Source of the DNA: Gammaproteobacteria bacterium
Lineage (GTDB): Bacteria; Pseudomonadota; Gammaproteobacteria; GCA-001735895
Assembly: GCA_018669845.1 (NCBI GenBank)
Contig: JABHSO010000189.1
Location: forward strand, 62,001 to 126,000
Direction: 5' to 3'
Length of the DNA: 64,000 bases
Of the stretch, positions 20,268 to 63,999 are shown piece after piece (positions within the stretch are counted from its first letter, which is position 1; each line of letters opens with the position of its first letter). Under the pieces are notes generated by a model. The model saw nothing but the letters and a program-made list of their open reading frames with translations. It did no database searches and was not told where the DNA came from. Position numbers and translations under genes: made by a program.

Positions 20268-20418
20268 TTACCACGAAGGCACGAAGAACACGAAGTTTTT
20301 AATTTAAGTATTTATGGCTCTGTAGGTTAACGGCAGTTTAAAATTACTGGATATTAATGATTAATTAGATAACAGTAGATTGTCTTTTCTTCGTGAGCTT
20401 CGTGTCTTCGTGGTGAAT
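20268..20418. repeat. CACGAAG long inverted repeat, copy 1
   Basis: The left arm ACCACGAAGGCACGAAGAAC continues to ACGAAG; the right arm on the other strand reads TTCACCACGAAGACACGAAG. Arms are about 33 nt and the A/T-rich core about 80 nt. The arms consist of a degenerate CACGAAG unit repeated three times. It is intergenic, between the qmo terminator and the DUF2788 gene. Confidence 0.85.
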
Positions 20419-25355: not shown

Positions 25356-25685
25356 TGAGAAATCCAGTAGAGCGCAATAATGTAAACTGGAATTATGTCC
25401 AATATTTGGAATTATAGACTTGATCTGAAACAATCATTTTAGAGATTTTTCACCATGAAGACACGAAGATCACGAAGGAGAACCATAATGTGATATTAAA
25501 ATTTGTTTGAAATCATAACTAATGACCGAATGAGTAGATTTTTTTAAATGTGTATTTATTTTCTTCGTGCCTTCGTGGTGATCTTATTTTTGACTTTTAA
25601 TAATGCTGAGTGATTACAAAAATCCTGATTACAGAATGAGTAAGTTTGAGTATTATCAATAACCCAATAAATATCTGGATAACCT
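25356..25685. other. 330-bp gap between roxA and the S4 gene
   Basis: The divergent gap contains CACGAAG element copy 2 (25448-25582) and otherwise A/T-rich DNA with no gene that I can support. Confidence 0.6.
25448..25582. repeat. CACGAAG long inverted repeat, copy 2
   Basis: Left arm TTTCACCATGAAGACACGAA with a third unit ATCACGAAGG; right arm on the other strand ATCACCACGAAGGCACGAAG. The right arm has only two units, so the copy looks partly eroded. Confidence 0.8.
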
Positions 25686-30519: not shown

Positions 30520-30681
30520 TTTTCACCACGAAGGACACGAAGGGCACGAAGAAAATATTGTTAAGTCATAATATTTAACTTAAGCATTTTGAGTAAAGGT
30601 AAGGCGTTACATAAATTTAATACAGAATTAATAAAACTTAATTTGCTCTTTCTTCGTGTCCTTCGTGCTCTTCGTGGTGAT
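30520..30681. repeat. CACGAAG long inverted repeat, copy 3
   Basis: Left arm TTCACCACGAAGGACACGAA then GGGCACGAAG; right arm on the other strand ATCACCACGAAGAGCACGAA then GGACACGAAG. Three CACGAAG units per arm, core about 95 nt. It separates sdhB from the antiporter gene. Confidence 0.88.
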
Positions 30682-52866: not shown

Positions 52867-53045
52867 TTTACCACGAAGAGCACGAAGTACACGAAGATTA
52901 TTAATATTTATGAGTATTAATAATTTAAGATAATATTTTACACAGGTATTAAAATTTATGCTTATTGTGCTTTAGGCAACCAAATTTTATGTCGCTTTAA
53001 AATAATTCTAAAAACCTTCGTGTTCTTGGTGTTCATCGTGGTGAA
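52867..53045. repeat. CACGAAG long inverted repeat, copy 6, between purH and purD
   Basis: Left arm TTACCACGAAGAGCACGAAG then TACACGAAG; right arm on the other strand TTCACCACGATGAACACCAA then GAACACGAAGG. Core about 110 nt. It sits inside the purHD transcription unit, lengthening the normally short spacer to 210 nt. Confidence 0.85.
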
Positions 53046-57290: not shown

Positions 57291-58168
57291 AATCTGATAC
57301 CTGTTATGCGGCACCAACTATCTTTAATCTTAACTTCATCAAGTTGAAAATGTTGCTGATAAGCCTGTCCCACTGAACCTGCCTGAGCGGGTAAAATGCC
57401 TGACAGTACAAGTTGGGCACCTTTGATAGTGAGGGATGCAAGTTGAGGTTCCAACTCGACCAGGGGACCGGAAAGGATATTAGCCATCAGGTATTCAACC
57501 GGTTCAATATCCATTTTTTCAGGTAAGCAAATGCCAAGCCGTTCAGGGTCTATATCATTACGTTTTGCGTTATTGGCTGTAGCTTCAAGGGCTTGTGGAT
57601 CGATATCTGTGCTAGTTACTTTGCTAGCACCGAGCTTGATGGCAGCGATTGCCAGAATGCCGGAACCACAACCAAAATCTAATACTGATTTAGTTTCAGG
57701 AGGATTCTCATCTAAAAATTCGAGGCATAAAGCTGTAGTAGGGTGTGTACCTGTTCCAAAAGCGATGCCCGGGTCGAGAATGATATTACAGGCTTCAGGG
57801 TCAGGAGGTTCATGCCAGCTAGGACATATCCACAAATTCTTTCCAAACTGTAAAGGTGTGAACTGATCCAGAAAGACTCGTTCCCAGACCTGATCTTCTA
57901 GTAAATGTTTTCTTATGCTAGAGATTTGATGAGCTGGAAGTTTTTTTACCAGTTCATCGTATAAATCTTCTATGCTTCTGGTTTGTTCAAACAGGCCTGT
58001 TAACGTAGTGTTTGGCCAAACCGGAATTTCGCCGGGAAGAGGTTCATAGATAGGTTCATCTTTTGCATCTCCCAGAGTCAGGCTTAATGCGCCTGACTCC
58101 AGAAAAATATTTTCAGTGTTTTCAAGTTCTTCACGACTACACTGAATGCTAAGTTGTAACCATGGCAT
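57287..58168 (-). CDS. prmA: PrmA, ribosomal protein L11 methyltransferase
   Basis: PrmA trimethylates ribosomal protein L11 with S-adenosylmethionine. The 293-residue product starts MPWLQLSIQCSREELENTEN and has the SAM motif SVLDFGCGSGILAIAAIKLG, the preceding PGIAFGTGTHPTTALCLEFL and the YLMANILSGPLVELEPQLAS segment. Length equals E. coli PrmA (293). Its ATG overlaps the TGA that ends the reading frame of the 264-bp insertion lying between it and accC. Confidence 0.96.
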   Translation of the reverse strand: MPWLQLSIQCSREELENTENIFLESGALSLTLGDAKDEPIYEPLPGEIPVWPNTTLTGLFEQTRSIEDLYDELVKKLPAHQISSIRKHLLEDQVWERVFLDQFTPLQFGKNLWICPSWHEPPDPEACNIILDPGIAFGTGTHPTTALCLEFLDENPPETKSVLDFGCGSGILAIAAIKLGASKVTSTDIDPQALEATANNAKRNDIDPERLGICLPEKMDIEPVEYLMANILSGPLVELEPQLASLTIKGAQLVLSGILPAQAGSVGQAYQQHFQLDEVKIKDSWCRITGIRL

Positions 58169-58434
58169 CAGTGTTCTACCCGAGTGATAATTACGAATTC
58201 AGTTAGTTTGTCAACGTTCACGGCAAGGTGCTCCTCGTAGATAATGGTTATTCCCTTGTCAAGAGGTGCTACGCAGTCCGTGTGCGCTGACAAGCTAACC
58301 CGAGGGGCATCCCTGTCGTGTCCCGTAGCTGTGTTCCAGTGCTCGATAAGGGGGTAGTCATTACCTTCGCACTGCGCCTTGCTTCGAAACACGACAGGGG
58401 TGCTGAATTCGTAATTATCACACGGGTAGAGCAC
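58168..58434 (-). CDS. 88-codon reading frame spanning the insertion element (coding status uncertain)
   Basis: The frame starts with GTG at the first base of the element (immediately after the accC TGA) and ends at a TGA overlapping the prmA ATG. It encodes MLYPCDNYEFSTPVVFRSKA and ends LTEFVIITRVEH. No family is recognised, and its two ends are dictated by the terminal inverted repeat, so it may have value only as an open path for ribosomes, not as a protein. No clear RBS; coupling to accC would be needed. Confidence 0.35.
   Translation of the reverse strand: MLYPCDNYEFSTPVVFRSKAQCEGNDYPLIEHWNTATGHDRDAPRVSLSAHTDCVAPLDKGITIIYEEHLAVNVDKLTEFVIITRVEH
58171..58434. mobile_element. 264-bp palindromic insertion element between accC and prmA
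   Basis: The ends are 32-bp inverted repeats with 30 matches: left GTGTTCTACCCGAGTGATAA, right on the other strand GTGCTCTACCCGTGTGATAA, both continuing TTACGAATTCAG. TCA flanks both sides (58168-58170 and 58435-58437), a likely 3-bp target duplication. Inside are two more stems: 58202-58213 with 58288-58299, and 58307-58321 with 58389-58403 (14 of 15 paired). Removing the insert and one TCA restores CATTGATGCC, that is, accC stop overlapping prmA start. It has no transposase gene, so it is non-autonomous. Confidence 0.85.
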
Positions 58435-59778
58435 TCAATGAATACCTAGCTTTTTCTCAAGATAGTGAATATCCGTGCCGCCAGCCGCAAAATTTCCGTC
58501 GCTGATAATATCACGCTGAAGGTTGATATTTGATCTGATGCCTTCTATTACAATTTCTGATAATGCACCCGACATACGGGCAATGGCTGATTCACGGGTG
58601 TCTCCGAAAGTAATTAATTTACCGATCATCGAGTCATAATGAGGAGGTACTGAATAGCCATTATAAATGTGTGTATCCATTCTGACACCAGGGCCTCCGG
58701 GCGCGTGATACGAAGTGATTTTACCGGGTGAAGGCATGAATGTTTTTGAATCTTCAGCATTCAGCCTGCATTCAATAGCATGACCCCTAACTTTAATATC
58801 TTCCTGTTTATAATTGAGTTTATTTCCCGCTGCAATAGACAGTTGTTCACGAATAATATCGACACCGGTGATCATTTCAGTGACAGGGTGTTCAACCTGA
58901 ACACGGGTATTCATTTCTATAAAATAAAACTCACCATTTTCATATAAAAATTCAAAAGTTCCTGCACCTTCATAGCCCATTTCTTCACAGGCCATGGCAC
59001 AGCGCTCGCCAATTCTGGCACGTTGCTCGGGAGTGATACCTGGAGCAGGGGCTTCTTCGACCACTTTTTGATGTTTACGTTGCATGGAGCAGTCACGTTC
59101 GGCAAGATGAATCGCATTACCGTGTGAATCGGCTAATACCTGGATCTCTACATGACGAGGTTTTTCCAGATATTTTTCCATGTAAACAACATCATTGTTA
59201 AAAGCAGCACCGGCTTCAGTTTTAGTTAACTGTATTGAATTCAACAGGCTTCCTTCGGCATTTACAACGCGCATGCCGCGACCGCCACCGCCACCGGCAG
59301 CTTTAATGATGACCGGGTAACCGATTCTTTTTGCAATTTTTAGATTACGCTCATTGTCATCATTTAATGGGCCATCTGAACCTGGTACAGTAGGTACACC
59401 GGCATCTTTCATAGCTTTAATAGCTGCAACCTTGTCACCCATAGTGCGAATAGCTTTGGCGCTTGGTCCGATGAATTTAAAACCACTAGATTCAACCTGT
59501 TCGGCAAATTCAGCATTTTCTGATAGAAACCCATACCCTGGATGAATAGCTGAAGCATTGGTGACTTCAGCTGCACAGATAATAGCTGGAATATTAAGAT
59601 AACTTTCCAGAGAGGATGGCGGCCCAATACAGACTGATTCATCGGCCAGGCGAACATGTTTCAGATCGCTATCGGCTGTGGAATGAACTGCAACAGTTTG
59701 TATGCCCATTTCGCGACAGGCCCGGAGAATTCGTAGAGCTATTTCGCCACGATTGGCGATTACGATTTTTTCTAACAT
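58435..59778 (-). CDS. accC: AccC, biotin carboxylase of acetyl-CoA carboxylase
   Basis: AccC carboxylates biotin on AccB, the first half of malonyl-CoA synthesis. The 447-residue ATP-grasp protein begins [20 protein letters not shown] and has [15 protein letters not shown], the glycine-rich [37 protein letters not shown] and [20 protein letters not shown]. Length matches E. coli AccC (449). It follows accB after 12 nt. Its TGA at 58435-58437 coincides with one copy of the target duplication. Confidence 0.97.
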
Positions 59779-59790
59779 ATCAGACAGCCT

Positions 59791-60246
59791 CTACTCAATA
59801 ACAAATAAAACCTGGTCGAATTCGACGGGTTGACCATTTTCAAGCATGATTTGTTTAATTGTTCCTGCCTTATCTGCTTCTATCTGGTTCATCATTTTCA
59901 TCGCTTCAATGATGCACAAGGTATCACCGATATTGACTTTTTTACCCACAGAGACAAAAGAGCCTGATGTAGGTGAAGCTGATGAGTAATATGTACCAAC
60001 CATCGGCGATTTAACCTGATGTCCTGAGGGTTCTTCAGTAACACTCGGGGCAGGTGTGGCGGCCTCGGGAGCAGCGGCAGCAGGTGCTGCAATAGCAGGT
60101 GCGGCCATGGCGGGAGCAACTGCAACAGGAGCAGAGGCGAATTGCCTGCTGATTCGAACTGATTCTTCACCTTCTTTAATTTCAAGTTCGGCGATACCAG
60201 ATTCCTCCAGCAACTCTATAAGTTTTTTTATTTTTCGAATATCCAT
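59791..60246 (-). CDS. accB: AccB, biotin carboxyl carrier protein
   Basis: AccB carries biotin between AccC and the carboxyltransferase. The 151-residue product has an N-terminal helix pair ([20 protein letters not shown]), an Ala/Pro-rich linker, and the biotinyl domain with Lys117 in [16 protein letters not shown] as the biotin site. Length and layout are standard. It opens the accBC unit, with aroQ just upstream on the same strand. Confidence 0.97.
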
Positions 60247-60277: not shown

Positions 60278-60718
60278 TTATTTGTTACAGCGTGATATCG
60301 CTGCTTTGAGGGCTAAAAGATAACTCTCTTTGCCCAATCCGCTGATAACGCCCACGGCGATATCAGATAAAAATGAATGTTGTCTGAATTCTTCTCGTGC
60401 ATGTACATTGGATAAATGTACCTCAATAAAAGGAATGCTACAGCCTAGAAAAGCATCACGAATAGCAACACTGGTGTGTGTAAATGCGGCTGGATTGATA
60501 ACAATAAAATCTGTTTTATCCTGTAAAGCCTGATGAATTCTATCGACTATCTGACCTTCATGGTTTGACTGGAAGGTTGCCAGATCAGTTGAATTTTCCT
60601 GTGCCAGTTGGGTTAACTGTTGGTTGATAGAGTCCAGCGTATCTACACCGTAGTGACCGGGTTCGCGTTGTCCAAGAAGGTTGAGATTTGGACCGTGGAT
60701 GACCAGAATATTGGACAT
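60278..60718 (-). CDS. aroQ: AroQ, type II 3-dehydroquinate dehydratase
   Basis: AroQ removes water from 3-dehydroquinate in the shikimate pathway. The 146-residue product has the type II motifs [55 protein letters not shown] and [20 protein letters not shown]. Length is standard. It lies immediately upstream of accB, a common order in gammaproteobacteria. A heptamer tandem repeat sits about 110-170 nt upstream of its start. Confidence 0.97.
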
Positions 60719-60825
60719 GCTTTAAATGATTTTACCGGAGTGTTAAAAATTGGATGCAATTCTCACATAGCTGCATGATCGTGTCCAGTTTTACTATAAA
60801 TTAACGATGATCGAGGCAATGTTTC

Positions 60826-60888
60826 TAAGTCTTAAGTCTTAAGTCTTAAGTCTTAAGTCTTAAGTCTTAAGTCTTAAGTCTTAAGTCG
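60826..60888. repeat. Heptamer tandem repeat (TAAGTCT), about nine copies
   Basis: TAAGTCT is repeated eight times without error, followed by a ninth unit TAAGTCG. The array is in the gap between the TlpA-like gene and aroQ, upstream of aroQ. Seven-base units in a non-coding position can change promoter or spacer length through slippage. Confidence 0.97.
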
Positions 60889-60940
60889 CTAGTCAAAAGC
60901 AAGAGTCAATGTTTTTGATTTTGGTGTTGAATTTTTACTA

Positions 60941-61534
60941 TTAACTTTGGACTGCCGACTTTTGACTTAGTTTTTGAATCTGTGTTTCTAACTGTTCTTT
61001 ACTGATTTCACCGCTGTGTTGAAAAACTATTTCGCGCTGTTCATTTAAAATTGCAGTAAATGGAAGTGCTCTACTGTCATTACCAAAATATTTATTAATT
61101 TGAGTAGCTTCTTTTTGAACCAGCAATAAAGGGTAGTTCATAGGGTATTTATCGTTGAATGCAGTGACGTTTTGCTGTGTATCGAAAGATAAACCAATTA
61201 ATTGCATGTTGTGCTGATATGTTTTCTGTATATCCACCAGGGCTGGAATTTCACGTCGACAGGGTGGGCACCATGGCGCCCAGAAGTTGACAATCATTAT
61301 AGGAGCTTTCCACTCACTAAGATTGCGAGGTTTAGTTTCTAAGTCATTTAATACAATGTTGTCAAAGTTCAATGCGACAGGTTTAGTTGAGTCTGTAGAT
61401 TTGTGGGGAGCTGAATCTGTACTGACACTGGCGCTGATAAATTCTGGCTGTGCTGTGCTGAAACGGAACATTGCAACACCAGCAACAGTAGATAGCAGAC
61501 TGATAGCTATAATGAATAAGATATTACGGTTCAT
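60941..61534 (-). CDS. TlpA/ResA-like membrane-anchored thioredoxin
   Basis: The 197-residue product has an N-terminal anchor or signal (MNRNILFIIAISLLSTVAGV) and a periplasmic thioredoxin fold: IMIVNFWAPWCPPCRREIPA gives a CPPC active site and DSRALPFTAILNEQREIVFQ the cis-Pro loop. ResA/TlpA relatives reduce apocytochrome c or other periplasmic thiols. It starts 2 nt after the dsbD stop, so DsbD probably supplies its electrons. Confidence 0.92.
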   Translation of the reverse strand: MNRNILFIIAISLLSTVAGVAMFRFSTAQPEFISASVSTDSAPHKSTDSTKPVALNFDNIVLNDLETKPRNLSEWKAPIMIVNFWAPWCPPCRREIPALVDIQKTYQHNMQLIGLSFDTQQNVTAFNDKYPMNYPLLLVQKEATQINKYFGNDSRALPFTAILNEQREIVFQHSGEISKEQLETQIQKLSQKSAVQS

Positions 61535-61536
61535 TG

Positions 61537-63999
61537 TTACAGGTTGCCTGCATACTTAATGATGTGAGCAGCAAACTTTTCACCACTCATTTCTCCTACA
61601 ACCCGGCTACCTTCAATTTCTTTTCCATTTCTGTCATAGAATAAAATAGCGGGTGGTCCAAATATACCCAGAGATTTCATGAATAATTTATCCGTCTGAT
61701 CATTGTCGGTGACATCGGTTTGTAAGGTTTGAAAACCCTTCAGGGCTTTTAGAACATCTGGGTGGGTAAATGCATATTTTTCCATTTCTTTACAGGAAAT
61801 ACACCAGTCAGCATAAAAGTCGAGCATGGCAGGCTGGCCTTTAGCTGAAGCCAGTGCCTGTTGCAAACCTGCTTCACCTTTGATTTGTTTGAATGCTATA
61901 TGAGACTGACTGACTGAACCCGACGATGTCGTTACGACTGAGCCAGTGATACCTTTTAAAGGTTGAATTAAATCTTTACTGCCAGCGGCAACGCCGTATA
62001 AGTAAAATAATCCATAAAACAATATGACCAGGCCGATGCCTTTCCATAGCTTTTTCCAGCCACTAGAACCTTCTGGCAGGCTGTCAATTGCACCCATGTA
62101 AATGGCCGATACGATAATCAATGTTGCCATCAACAACATGGTTACGGATGTTGGTAAAATACGTTCTAACAGCCAGATTGCTACCGCTATCAGGGCTATA
62201 CCAAAAACTGCTTTTACCGAATCCATCCAGGTGCCAGCTCTGGGTAACAGGTTACCTGCAGTGGTACCGATAATTAATAACGGTGTACCCATGCCAAGGC
62301 CAAGAGCAAACAATGCAAGCCCGCCCAGTTGCCAGTCCTGAGTTTGTGAAATGAAGACCAGAGCTCCTACCAGTGGAGCGGTTATACAGGGGCCGACGAT
62401 GAGTGCTGATAACAGACCCATTATGCCAACACCTACTAGATTGCCACCTTCCTGCTTGTTACTGAACTCAGTCAGTCGGCTTTGAATGAATGAAGGCATT
62501 TGCAGTTCGTAAAAGCCAAACATGGAAAGTGATAGTAAAACGAATACGCCAGCAAATATGCTCAAAATTAACGGATCCTGGAACCAGGCCTGAATATTAA
62601 ATTCTGCCCCGAATCGTCCCACGACGGCTCCGGCTACCGCATAAGTTGATGCCATGGCTAAAACGTACACGAGTGAAAGGGTAAAAGCTTTACGAGTGGT
62701 AATGTTGTCACCCTGTCCAGCAATGATACCTGACAGAATGGGGATCATTGGGAATACGCAAGGCGTGAACGTTAACAGTAATCCGGCCAGAAAGAATGAT
62801 CCTATAATAATAAACAGGCTTTCATTGGCAATGATGCCCGCAAAACGATCCTGTTCATTTTGATCTTGCTCTACGGCAACTGTTGAAGATGATGTTGAGG
62901 AAGCTTGCTTACTGCTTACAGCTGCATTTGATATTTCTGGACGTTCGTCAGAGATGTCCAGAGAATGATCATTCAGATCTACTTTGAAATATTTTGTGAT
63001 TGGTGGATAGCAGATTTTATCTTCTACACAGCCCTGATATTTGTAAGCTAATGTAAGTTGACTGCTTGCCTGTGCTTCAGATAAGACAGGAATAGATATC
63101 TTGAGGTAATCATGGTAAACCTCCATCAGACCAAAAAATTCATCATTTTTTTCATCACCCTTTGGCAGAGAAACTGCACCCAGGCTATGGCCGTTACCAT
63201 CCAGTAATTCTACCTTCATTTTATTTTTATAAAGGTAGGTGTGTTTATAAATCTGAATTTCAGACTGGATAATGTTGTTTTTATCGATAGTGGCTGCTAC
63301 TTGAAAAGCCTTATCTGGATCAGGTATTTCATCATCATCTTCCAGCCCGATATCTCCACCCAAAGCCTGTAACAGAGCCAGTGGGTTTAAGCTGCTTTCG
63401 CTTGTTGAATCTTGAGTAGGTACTGGTTCTGGAGCAGGGTTTGTCGGCATTAACTGGGTAGCCTGTGAAAACAGGTTCTGTAGTTCATTAACACCATTTT
63501 CAACGCTGGCCGCTGCAACTTTGACAGGTTTGAATTCATACGGTTTTGGTGACACTTTTGCTGAATCGGATAAATTCATCACCAGTGACTGATATAAAGG
63601 AGGATAGCAAACGCCAATATCGGCACAGCCCTGACCGGCAGTCTTAATATTTATAGCGACTGGTTTAGTGCCACTCATGTATTCGAGCGGAAGTGTTATA
63701 GCAATACTGTCTCGATAAATTTCAACATCACCAAAAAATTCATCGTGTTTTATTTTTCCATCTGGAACATTGGGTTCAGCAAATACAGCACCATCACTTT
63801 CCATGTCAAATTGAAAGGCATCACGATACATATAATAGCCGGGAGCAATATCATATTTAGCGATGACTTTATCGCCTTCAACCCAGGCTTGTAGGCTAAA
63901 GGCTTTTTCTGGAGGCAACAGCTCATCCTGCTGGGCTAAAACAGTGCTTGAGCCCAGTAGCATTAATGAAACCAGTAAAAGTGTTTTCATGAAATTCAT
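61537..63999 (-). CDS. dsbD: DsbD, thiol:disulfide interchange protein with two N-terminal domains
   Basis: DsbD moves reducing power from cytoplasmic thioredoxin to periplasmic thiol proteins. The frame is 820 residues long against 565 for E. coli. After a signal peptide (MKTLLLVSLMLLGSSTVLA) there are two DsbD-alpha-like domains, each with the redox pair (QGCADIGVCYPP and QGCVEDKICYPP). Eight membrane helices hold FTPCVFPMIPIL and VGPCITAPLVGAL, and the C-terminal thioredoxin domain has DFYADWCISCKEMEKY. ATG at 63999 or 63990 is the start; the gene begins at the window edge, so an extension cannot be excluded. Confidence 0.94.
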   Translation of the reverse strand: MNFMKTLLLVSLMLLGSSTVLAQQDELLPPEKAFSLQAWVEGDKVIAKYDIAPGYYMYRDAFQFDMESDGAVFAEPNVPDGKIKHDEFFGDVEIYRDSIAITLPLEYMSGTKPVAINIKTAGQGCADIGVCYPPLYQSLVMNLSDSAKVSPKPYEFKPVKVAAASVENGVNELQNLFSQATQLMPTNPAPEPVPTQDSTSESSLNPLALLQALGGDIGLEDDDEIPDPDKAFQVAATIDKNNIIQSEIQIYKHTYLYKNKMKVELLDGNGHSLGAVSLPKGDEKNDEFFGLMEVYHDYLKISIPVLSEAQASSQLTLAYKYQGCVEDKICYPPITKYFKVDLNDHSLDISDERPEISNAAVSSKQASSTSSSTVAVEQDQNEQDRFAGIIANESLFIIIGSFFLAGLLLTFTPCVFPMIPILSGIIAGQGDNITTRKAFTLSLVYVLAMASTYAVAGAVVGRFGAEFNIQAWFQDPLILSIFAGVFVLLSLSMFGFYELQMPSFIQSRLTEFSNKQEGGNLVGVGIMGLLSALIVGPCITAPLVGALVFISQTQDWQLGGLALFALGLGMGTPLLIIGTTAGNLLPRAGTWMDSVKAVFGIALIAVAIWLLERILPTSVTMLLMATLIIVSAIYMGAIDSLPEGSSGWKKLWKGIGLVILFYGLFYLYGVAAGSKDLIQPLKGITGSVVTTSSGSVSQSHIAFKQIKGEAGLQQALASAKGQPAMLDFYADWCISCKEMEKYAFTHPDVLKALKGFQTLQTDVTDNDQTDKLFMKSLGIFGPPAILFYDRNGKEIEGSRVVGEMSGEKFAAHIIKYAGNL

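Follow-up and report, generated by a model that had tools for sequence, protein, structure and literature searches.

A perfect heptamer array upstream of aroQ as the probable arm of a dispersed, two-armed intergenic repeat

Why does a perfect array of heptamers stand between tlpA and aroQ in a gammaproteobacterium? The question is raised by a 64-kb stretch of DNA (the window; positions 62,001 to 126,000 of contig JABHSO010000189.1, assembly GCA_018669845.1), in which TAAGTCT units occupy part of the 222-nt gap between the genes of a TlpA-like protein and of the aroQ-accB-accC series, all on the minus strand. Tandem Repeats Finder (TRF) places the array at 60826–60887 (62 nt), with a period of 7, 8.9 copies, 100% matches and a score of 124; the runner-up among the 27 TRF rows for the window scores 45, and three consecutive perfect copies of a 7-mer are found only at this place in the window. 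A preliminary description of the sequence had counted eight perfect units plus a ninth in a gap of 220 nt, and both figures are borne out, the ninth unit having six of its seven bases in TRF.

That description overlooked the larger arrangement. In AGTC phase the array, listed from TRF and a pattern search as 60826–60888 (GACTTAA on the minus strand), forms a left arm of ten units (60828–60894), and an opposing arm with four RACT units lies 48 nt away. This right arm (60943–60967, plus strand), delimited by the pattern and by alignment of tlpA, consists of AACTTTG, GACTGCC, GACTTTT and GACT, and overlaps the last eight codons and the stop codon of tlpA. The two arms and the AT-rich spacer between them (60895–60942), both obtained by pattern extraction, make up one element (60826–60967, locus L061, assigned to neither strand): AGTCNNN units, spacer, and GACTNNN units running into the 3′ end of tlpA. 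The C-terminus of the TlpA-like protein reads KLSQKSAVQS, in which SQKSAVQS, after KL, is encoded by the right arm; in relatives from the same genus it reads KTLL (G004), KALL (G007) or KTALEVH (G003).

The element is missing from the same gap in the four relatives examined (G004, G007, G003 and G001), none of which has heptamers there. The aroQ loci of G004 (contig JAAEMR010000083.1, L135) and G007 (CALCSG010000001.1, L136) were assigned by identical alignments, and the aroQ side of the gap in G004 is 89% identical to the window. Upstream of aroQ, the alignment stops at 60824 in G004 and G007 and at 60828 in G003 and G001. Since it ends in all four at the edge of the array, the conserved DNA lies between the array and aroQ. 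In the other three genomes of the genus, the match ends at 60820 (G002) or 60797 (G006), or covers a short piece only (G005).

The GACT core of the unit recurs across the source genome (G000; 4.54 Mb in 233 contigs, 96.99% complete, 5.34% contamination). Overlapping matches to four consecutive GACTNNN units number 78, and those to four RACTNNN units 172. Among the matches listed, the RACTNNN arrays occupy at least 31 places, equivalent to at least 27 sites because eight of these places are at contig ends and might join in pairs. The units are heterogeneous, including GACTTAC, GACTGCC, GACTTCC, GACTTCT, AACTGCC, AACTGCT and AACTGAT. Arrays of four GACT units were detected in three of the eight genomes of the genus, in none of 28 genomes of other genera of the same family, and in 4 of the 57 genomes searched overall.

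The arms also follow a polarity. Head-to-head pairs, defined as AGTCNNNAGTC, 30 to 60 nucleotides of any sequence and RACTNNNRACT, occur in three of the eight genus genomes (nine places in G000, five in G004 and one in G007), and the tail-to-tail arrangement in none of the eight. With three units required per arm, head-to-head pairs were found in 10 of 369 genomes of the class, from nine genera and nine families, and tail-to-tail pairs in none of the 369. The arm units of G159, a member of another family, are GTAAGTC and AACTGCC, the same as in several G000 copies.

Some elements at unrelated loci can be aligned with each other: L072 with L074 (91.8% over 134 nt), L070 with L078 (88% over 85 nt) and L070 with L075 (85% over 93 nt), all identities including the arms. 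On the same basis, an element of G004 (C188) is 85% identical over 80 nt to one of G000 (C206), while the gene next to C188 matches G000:C205 and the flanks of C206 match other G004 contigs. We compared spacers alone as 351 pairs drawn from 27 spacers (26 of 34 extracted rows, which include locus L224 in two readings, after dropping eight under 25 nt, plus one added). Only the 12 pairs scoring at least 22 were shuffled, and ten of them exceed all 400 shuffles; the window spacer is in none of these. As some spacers are common to unrelated loci, the element appears to disperse. Mobilisation by Y1 transposases may occur but is not supported: PF01797 occurs in all eight genus genomes (four in G000, three in G004, ten in G007 and one or two in each of the others), and no RACT array was present at the 12 of 24 PF01797 loci inspected.

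Two separate observations concern spacers of heptamer pairs in other genomes. At locus L222 of G172, a GC-rich palindrome that looks like a terminator is flanked by paired arms whose unit, AGTCTTA, is that of the window. In G043, a member of the class from another family, the spacers of pairs at L083, L086 and L229 share TTGACAGGCC or TTTACAGGCC and TTACGCTCTTGTCT, which resemble a promoter lying between the arms.

At fixed sites, the arrays turn over. Ten further sites were compared in G004, the sister species. Seven of them have heptamers that differ from those of G000 in unit or count, an eighth has a degenerate remnant, and the remaining two have none. G007 is comparable at eight of the ten, with arrays at one; counting the aroQ gap, it has arrays at one of nine sites. 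The preliminary description took the purity of the array as a sign of recent expansion, and a recent origin or expansion agrees with the perfect units, the heptamer-free gap in four relatives and the differing unit numbers at orthologous sites of sister species.

The position of the arms relative to genes is also asymmetric. The median distance to the next open reading frame (ORF) is 6 nt for the outer end of an arm (39 known distances) but 69 nt for the inner end (31 known distances), with 25 of the 39 outer ends but 2 of the 31 inner ends within 10 nt. The 25 close outer ends in G000 mostly face a stop codon (21), the other four facing a start. This sample comprises 44 arms at 30 G000 loci and omits arms deep inside ORFs (clusters of this sort occur twice, in L061 and L074); the ORFs are the longest open frames of at least 80 aa rather than curated genes.

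Dispersal, polarity and array-free sites together argue for an element, and the turnover of units and copy number at fixed sites for slippage-driven change afterwards. We therefore consider that the array probably belongs, as left arm, to a copy of a non-coding repeat element that is two-armed and dispersed, with later turnover by slippage; our confidence is limited by the window spacer, for which no other copy offers a match. In such elements the heptamer arms, of RACTNNN consensus, point away from a central spacer (AGTCNNN, spacer, GACTNNN). The window copy most likely entered the tlpA/aroQ gap once the lineage had separated from its sister species, and the family suggests that it would have come as a unit. 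Its point of arrival would be the stop codon of tlpA, outside the conserved block upstream of aroQ. The arms may then have altered their length and unit by replication slippage, with hairpin formation perhaps helping. We infer that this intergenic copy is probably near-neutral or selfish and hardly affects aroQ-accBC; no result here shows an effect on these genes.

Several results weigh against this interpretation. Backwards patterns, used as controls, gave matches in three (one or two each) and two of the eight genus genomes, and in three and two of the 369 class genomes; the three are mostly a matter of G043, whose units fit both readings, and the two are G159 (7+7) and G344 (1+1). Single-armed arrays are common. 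Spacers at orthologous sites are mostly not alignable, making arrival as a unit hard to separate from growth in place. The window spacer has no similarity to the others among the 27 compared, and so the window copy may have grown in place. Its left arm, 109 nt from the aroQ start, is an exception to the gene-abutting placement. An autonomous parent, a transposase and a target duplication were not found, larger heptamer-ended elements not having been searched for; target duplications are unreadable since the ends of the element are variable arrays.

Two other explanations have to be weighed against the dispersed element. The array could be an ordinary local microsatellite, in which a chance duplication of a 7-mer grew by slippage at one site and the opposing GACT units are a coincidence. 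The perfect units, the lineage-specific gap and the unmatched window spacer would all fit, and heptamer arrays lacking RACT do exist: in 1.498 Mb from the class (at most 20 kb of contig 1 from each of 100 genomes picked systematically), five period-7 arrays of at least 18 nt were found, of which none has RACT and one has RAYT, near the 11% and 20% estimated for chance. This sample also gives no support to the idea that heptamer arrays in general have RACT. A further 634 kb around relatives of tlpA contain a single array, CGAGTCC, which is GACTCGG in the frame used here. A purely local origin is nevertheless unlikely, given that the GACT core belongs to a genome-wide family and that the opposing arm lies at the usual distance in an arrangement whose tail-to-tail counterpart is absent from the eight genus genomes.

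Alternatively, the array or the hairpin formed by both arms could control the stability of the tlpA 3′ end, read-through into aroQ or translation, with array length tuning expression. The whole element folds as an imperfect hairpin on either strand (z-scores of −5.3 and −6.0, which are flattering because shuffling destroys tandem repeats), and the outer arm ends close to ORFs predominantly face stop codons. TTGACA or TTGACC, resembling promoter cores, is found in 9 of the 27 spacers against 0.9 expected, the related spacers not being independent; TAACTGA repeats shortly upstream of start codons in Beggiatoaceae have been proposed as regulator sites in the account given in PMC4679880. Against such a function, the element does not stay in place: arrays of four GACT units are absent from the 28 same-family genomes of other genera, and G007 has arrays at one of nine sites. 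Units and spacers turn over, and the window spacer has neither TTGACA nor TTGACC, so a promoter core in every spacer is not supported. Nor is a structured RNA indicated: comparison with Rfam at gathering thresholds gave no match anywhere in the window, the block upstream of aroQ included. Regulation by array length also sits poorly with the block conserved in G004, G007, G003 and G001 (60755–60824, minus strand, from the alignments), which ends at the array edge and lies wholly between array and gene. This block is probably the aroQ promoter, a leader region or a regulator site; the one promoter-like match in it (60787–60759) is at chance level, with 0.9 expected. The earlier proposal that a change in array length would move a promoter relative to aroQ is consequently not supported by the position of the block, although an unconserved promoter element may lie further upstream, beyond the array. 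In a phase-variation microsatellite, the array would typically interrupt a promoter, separate its parts or fall in the coding frame of the gene that it switches; here the conserved block is on the gene side of the array. Taken together, these points make a regulatory role improbable.

Beyond the array, the neighbouring genes on the minus strand are aroQ, a class II dehydroquinase (60278–60718, PF01220), accB, the biotin carboxyl carrier (59791–60246, PF00364), and accC, biotin carboxylase (58435–59778, PF02786, PF00289 and PF02785). On the other side are the gene of the TlpA-like thioredoxin-fold protein, with its C-terminus altered by the right arm (60941–61534, PF00578), and dsbD (61537–63999, PF02683 and PF11412). 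The gap that separates accC from the next ORF is filled by an open frame of 88 aa beginning with GTG (58168–58434), which has no Pfam match and is probably not a gene. The window also contains a second inverted-array family, in which 9-nt CACGAAGNN arms face CTTCGTG arms across an AT-rich spacer, at 20272–20412, 25462–25577, 30527–30676 and 52872–53040. An inverted repeat of this CACGAAG type stands where G000:C206 has arrays, at one site in G007 (L296) and at another in G004 (L292).

If the preferred explanation as a dispersed element is correct, an apparent microsatellite becomes a copy of an element with a polarity rule, whose unit turnover is visible at fixed sites. In nature the sites already offer a series (array absent, short, long or with its unit replaced) for testing the origin of bacterial heptamer repeats, and they caution that an array beside a gene need not regulate that gene.

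Miniature inverted-repeat transposable elements (MITEs) and repetitive extragenic palindromic (REP) sequences are short, non-coding, intergenic, inverted and dispersed, and are missing at a given site in relatives. Here too, homologous copies are dispersed and relatives have empty sites, though the window spacer matches no other copy; unlike MITEs and REP sequences, the arms are variable tandem heptamers rather than fixed terminal inverted repeats. As 7-nt tandem units that are dispersed and mostly between genes, the arrays are of a known kind, represented by intergenic heptamer repeats in Xanthomonas and in Beggiatoaceae. Here the kind takes the form of a GACTNNN variant that disperses like an element; in the literature searched, no listed title or abstract dealt with arrays of GACTNNN.

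In Xanthomonas, heterogeneous (GGGANTN)n or GGGAATC heptamers are reported as dispersed, mostly intergenic and nearer to one of the flanking ORFs (Rehm et al. 2015, PMC4692102). The same source gives 70 cases of close pairs in convergent orientation for Xcc (186 repeats) and 75 for Xac (183), and states that most repeats occupy the same gaps in two species but differ in length and sequence. The repeats described here are likewise dispersed intergenic heptamers with opposing pairs in a fixed orientation and shared gaps with turnover. The GGGANTN units have G-runs and quadruplex potential, whereas RACTNNN units lack G-runs, and the shared spacers found here are not described in the available part of PMC4692102. 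Marine Beggiatoaceae carry intergenic direct repeats of the heptamer TAACTGA, reported from a gammaproteobacterium (MacGregor 2015, PMC4679880), with 1175 occurrences listed for Thiomargarita (PMC4853749). Read in the RACTNNN frame, TAACTGA becomes AACTGAT, a unit that forms arrays in our source genome (G000:C94). In contrast to those repeats, the window unit is TAAGTCT, units vary, and the arms are paired, most of them facing stop codons; the Beggiatoaceae repeats lie within several nucleotides upstream of a start codon, while the window array is 109 nt from the aroQ start and 4 of 25 close outer ends in the genome face a start.

Geobacter metallireducens, from another phylum, has multicopy heptamer elements, among which are 49 with four heptamer repeats and a class of pairs with MTYCTGA repeated five times (PMC2700814). 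Shifted to the frame GAMTYCT, MTYCTGA is akin to the units here; this and the other RAYTNNN frames of published units are our own reading. The Geobacter elements differ in that regulatory RNA or binding sites of regulators are predicted for them, and unit turnover is not among the features seen in the available text of PMC2700814. The array sample above (none of five with RACT, one with RAYT) counts against a RAYTNNN rule for all heptamers, not for dispersed families. For the latter we offer, as a speculation with little probability, that an outward-pointing RAYTNNN arm code underlies GATTCCC of Xanthomonas, GAYTGGG of Nostoc, AACTGAT of Beggiatoaceae, GAMTYCT of Geobacter and GACTNNN of this genus, and that a machinery so far undescribed would maintain the element, read the constant positions, copy the element to gene ends and let the variable positions be rewritten.
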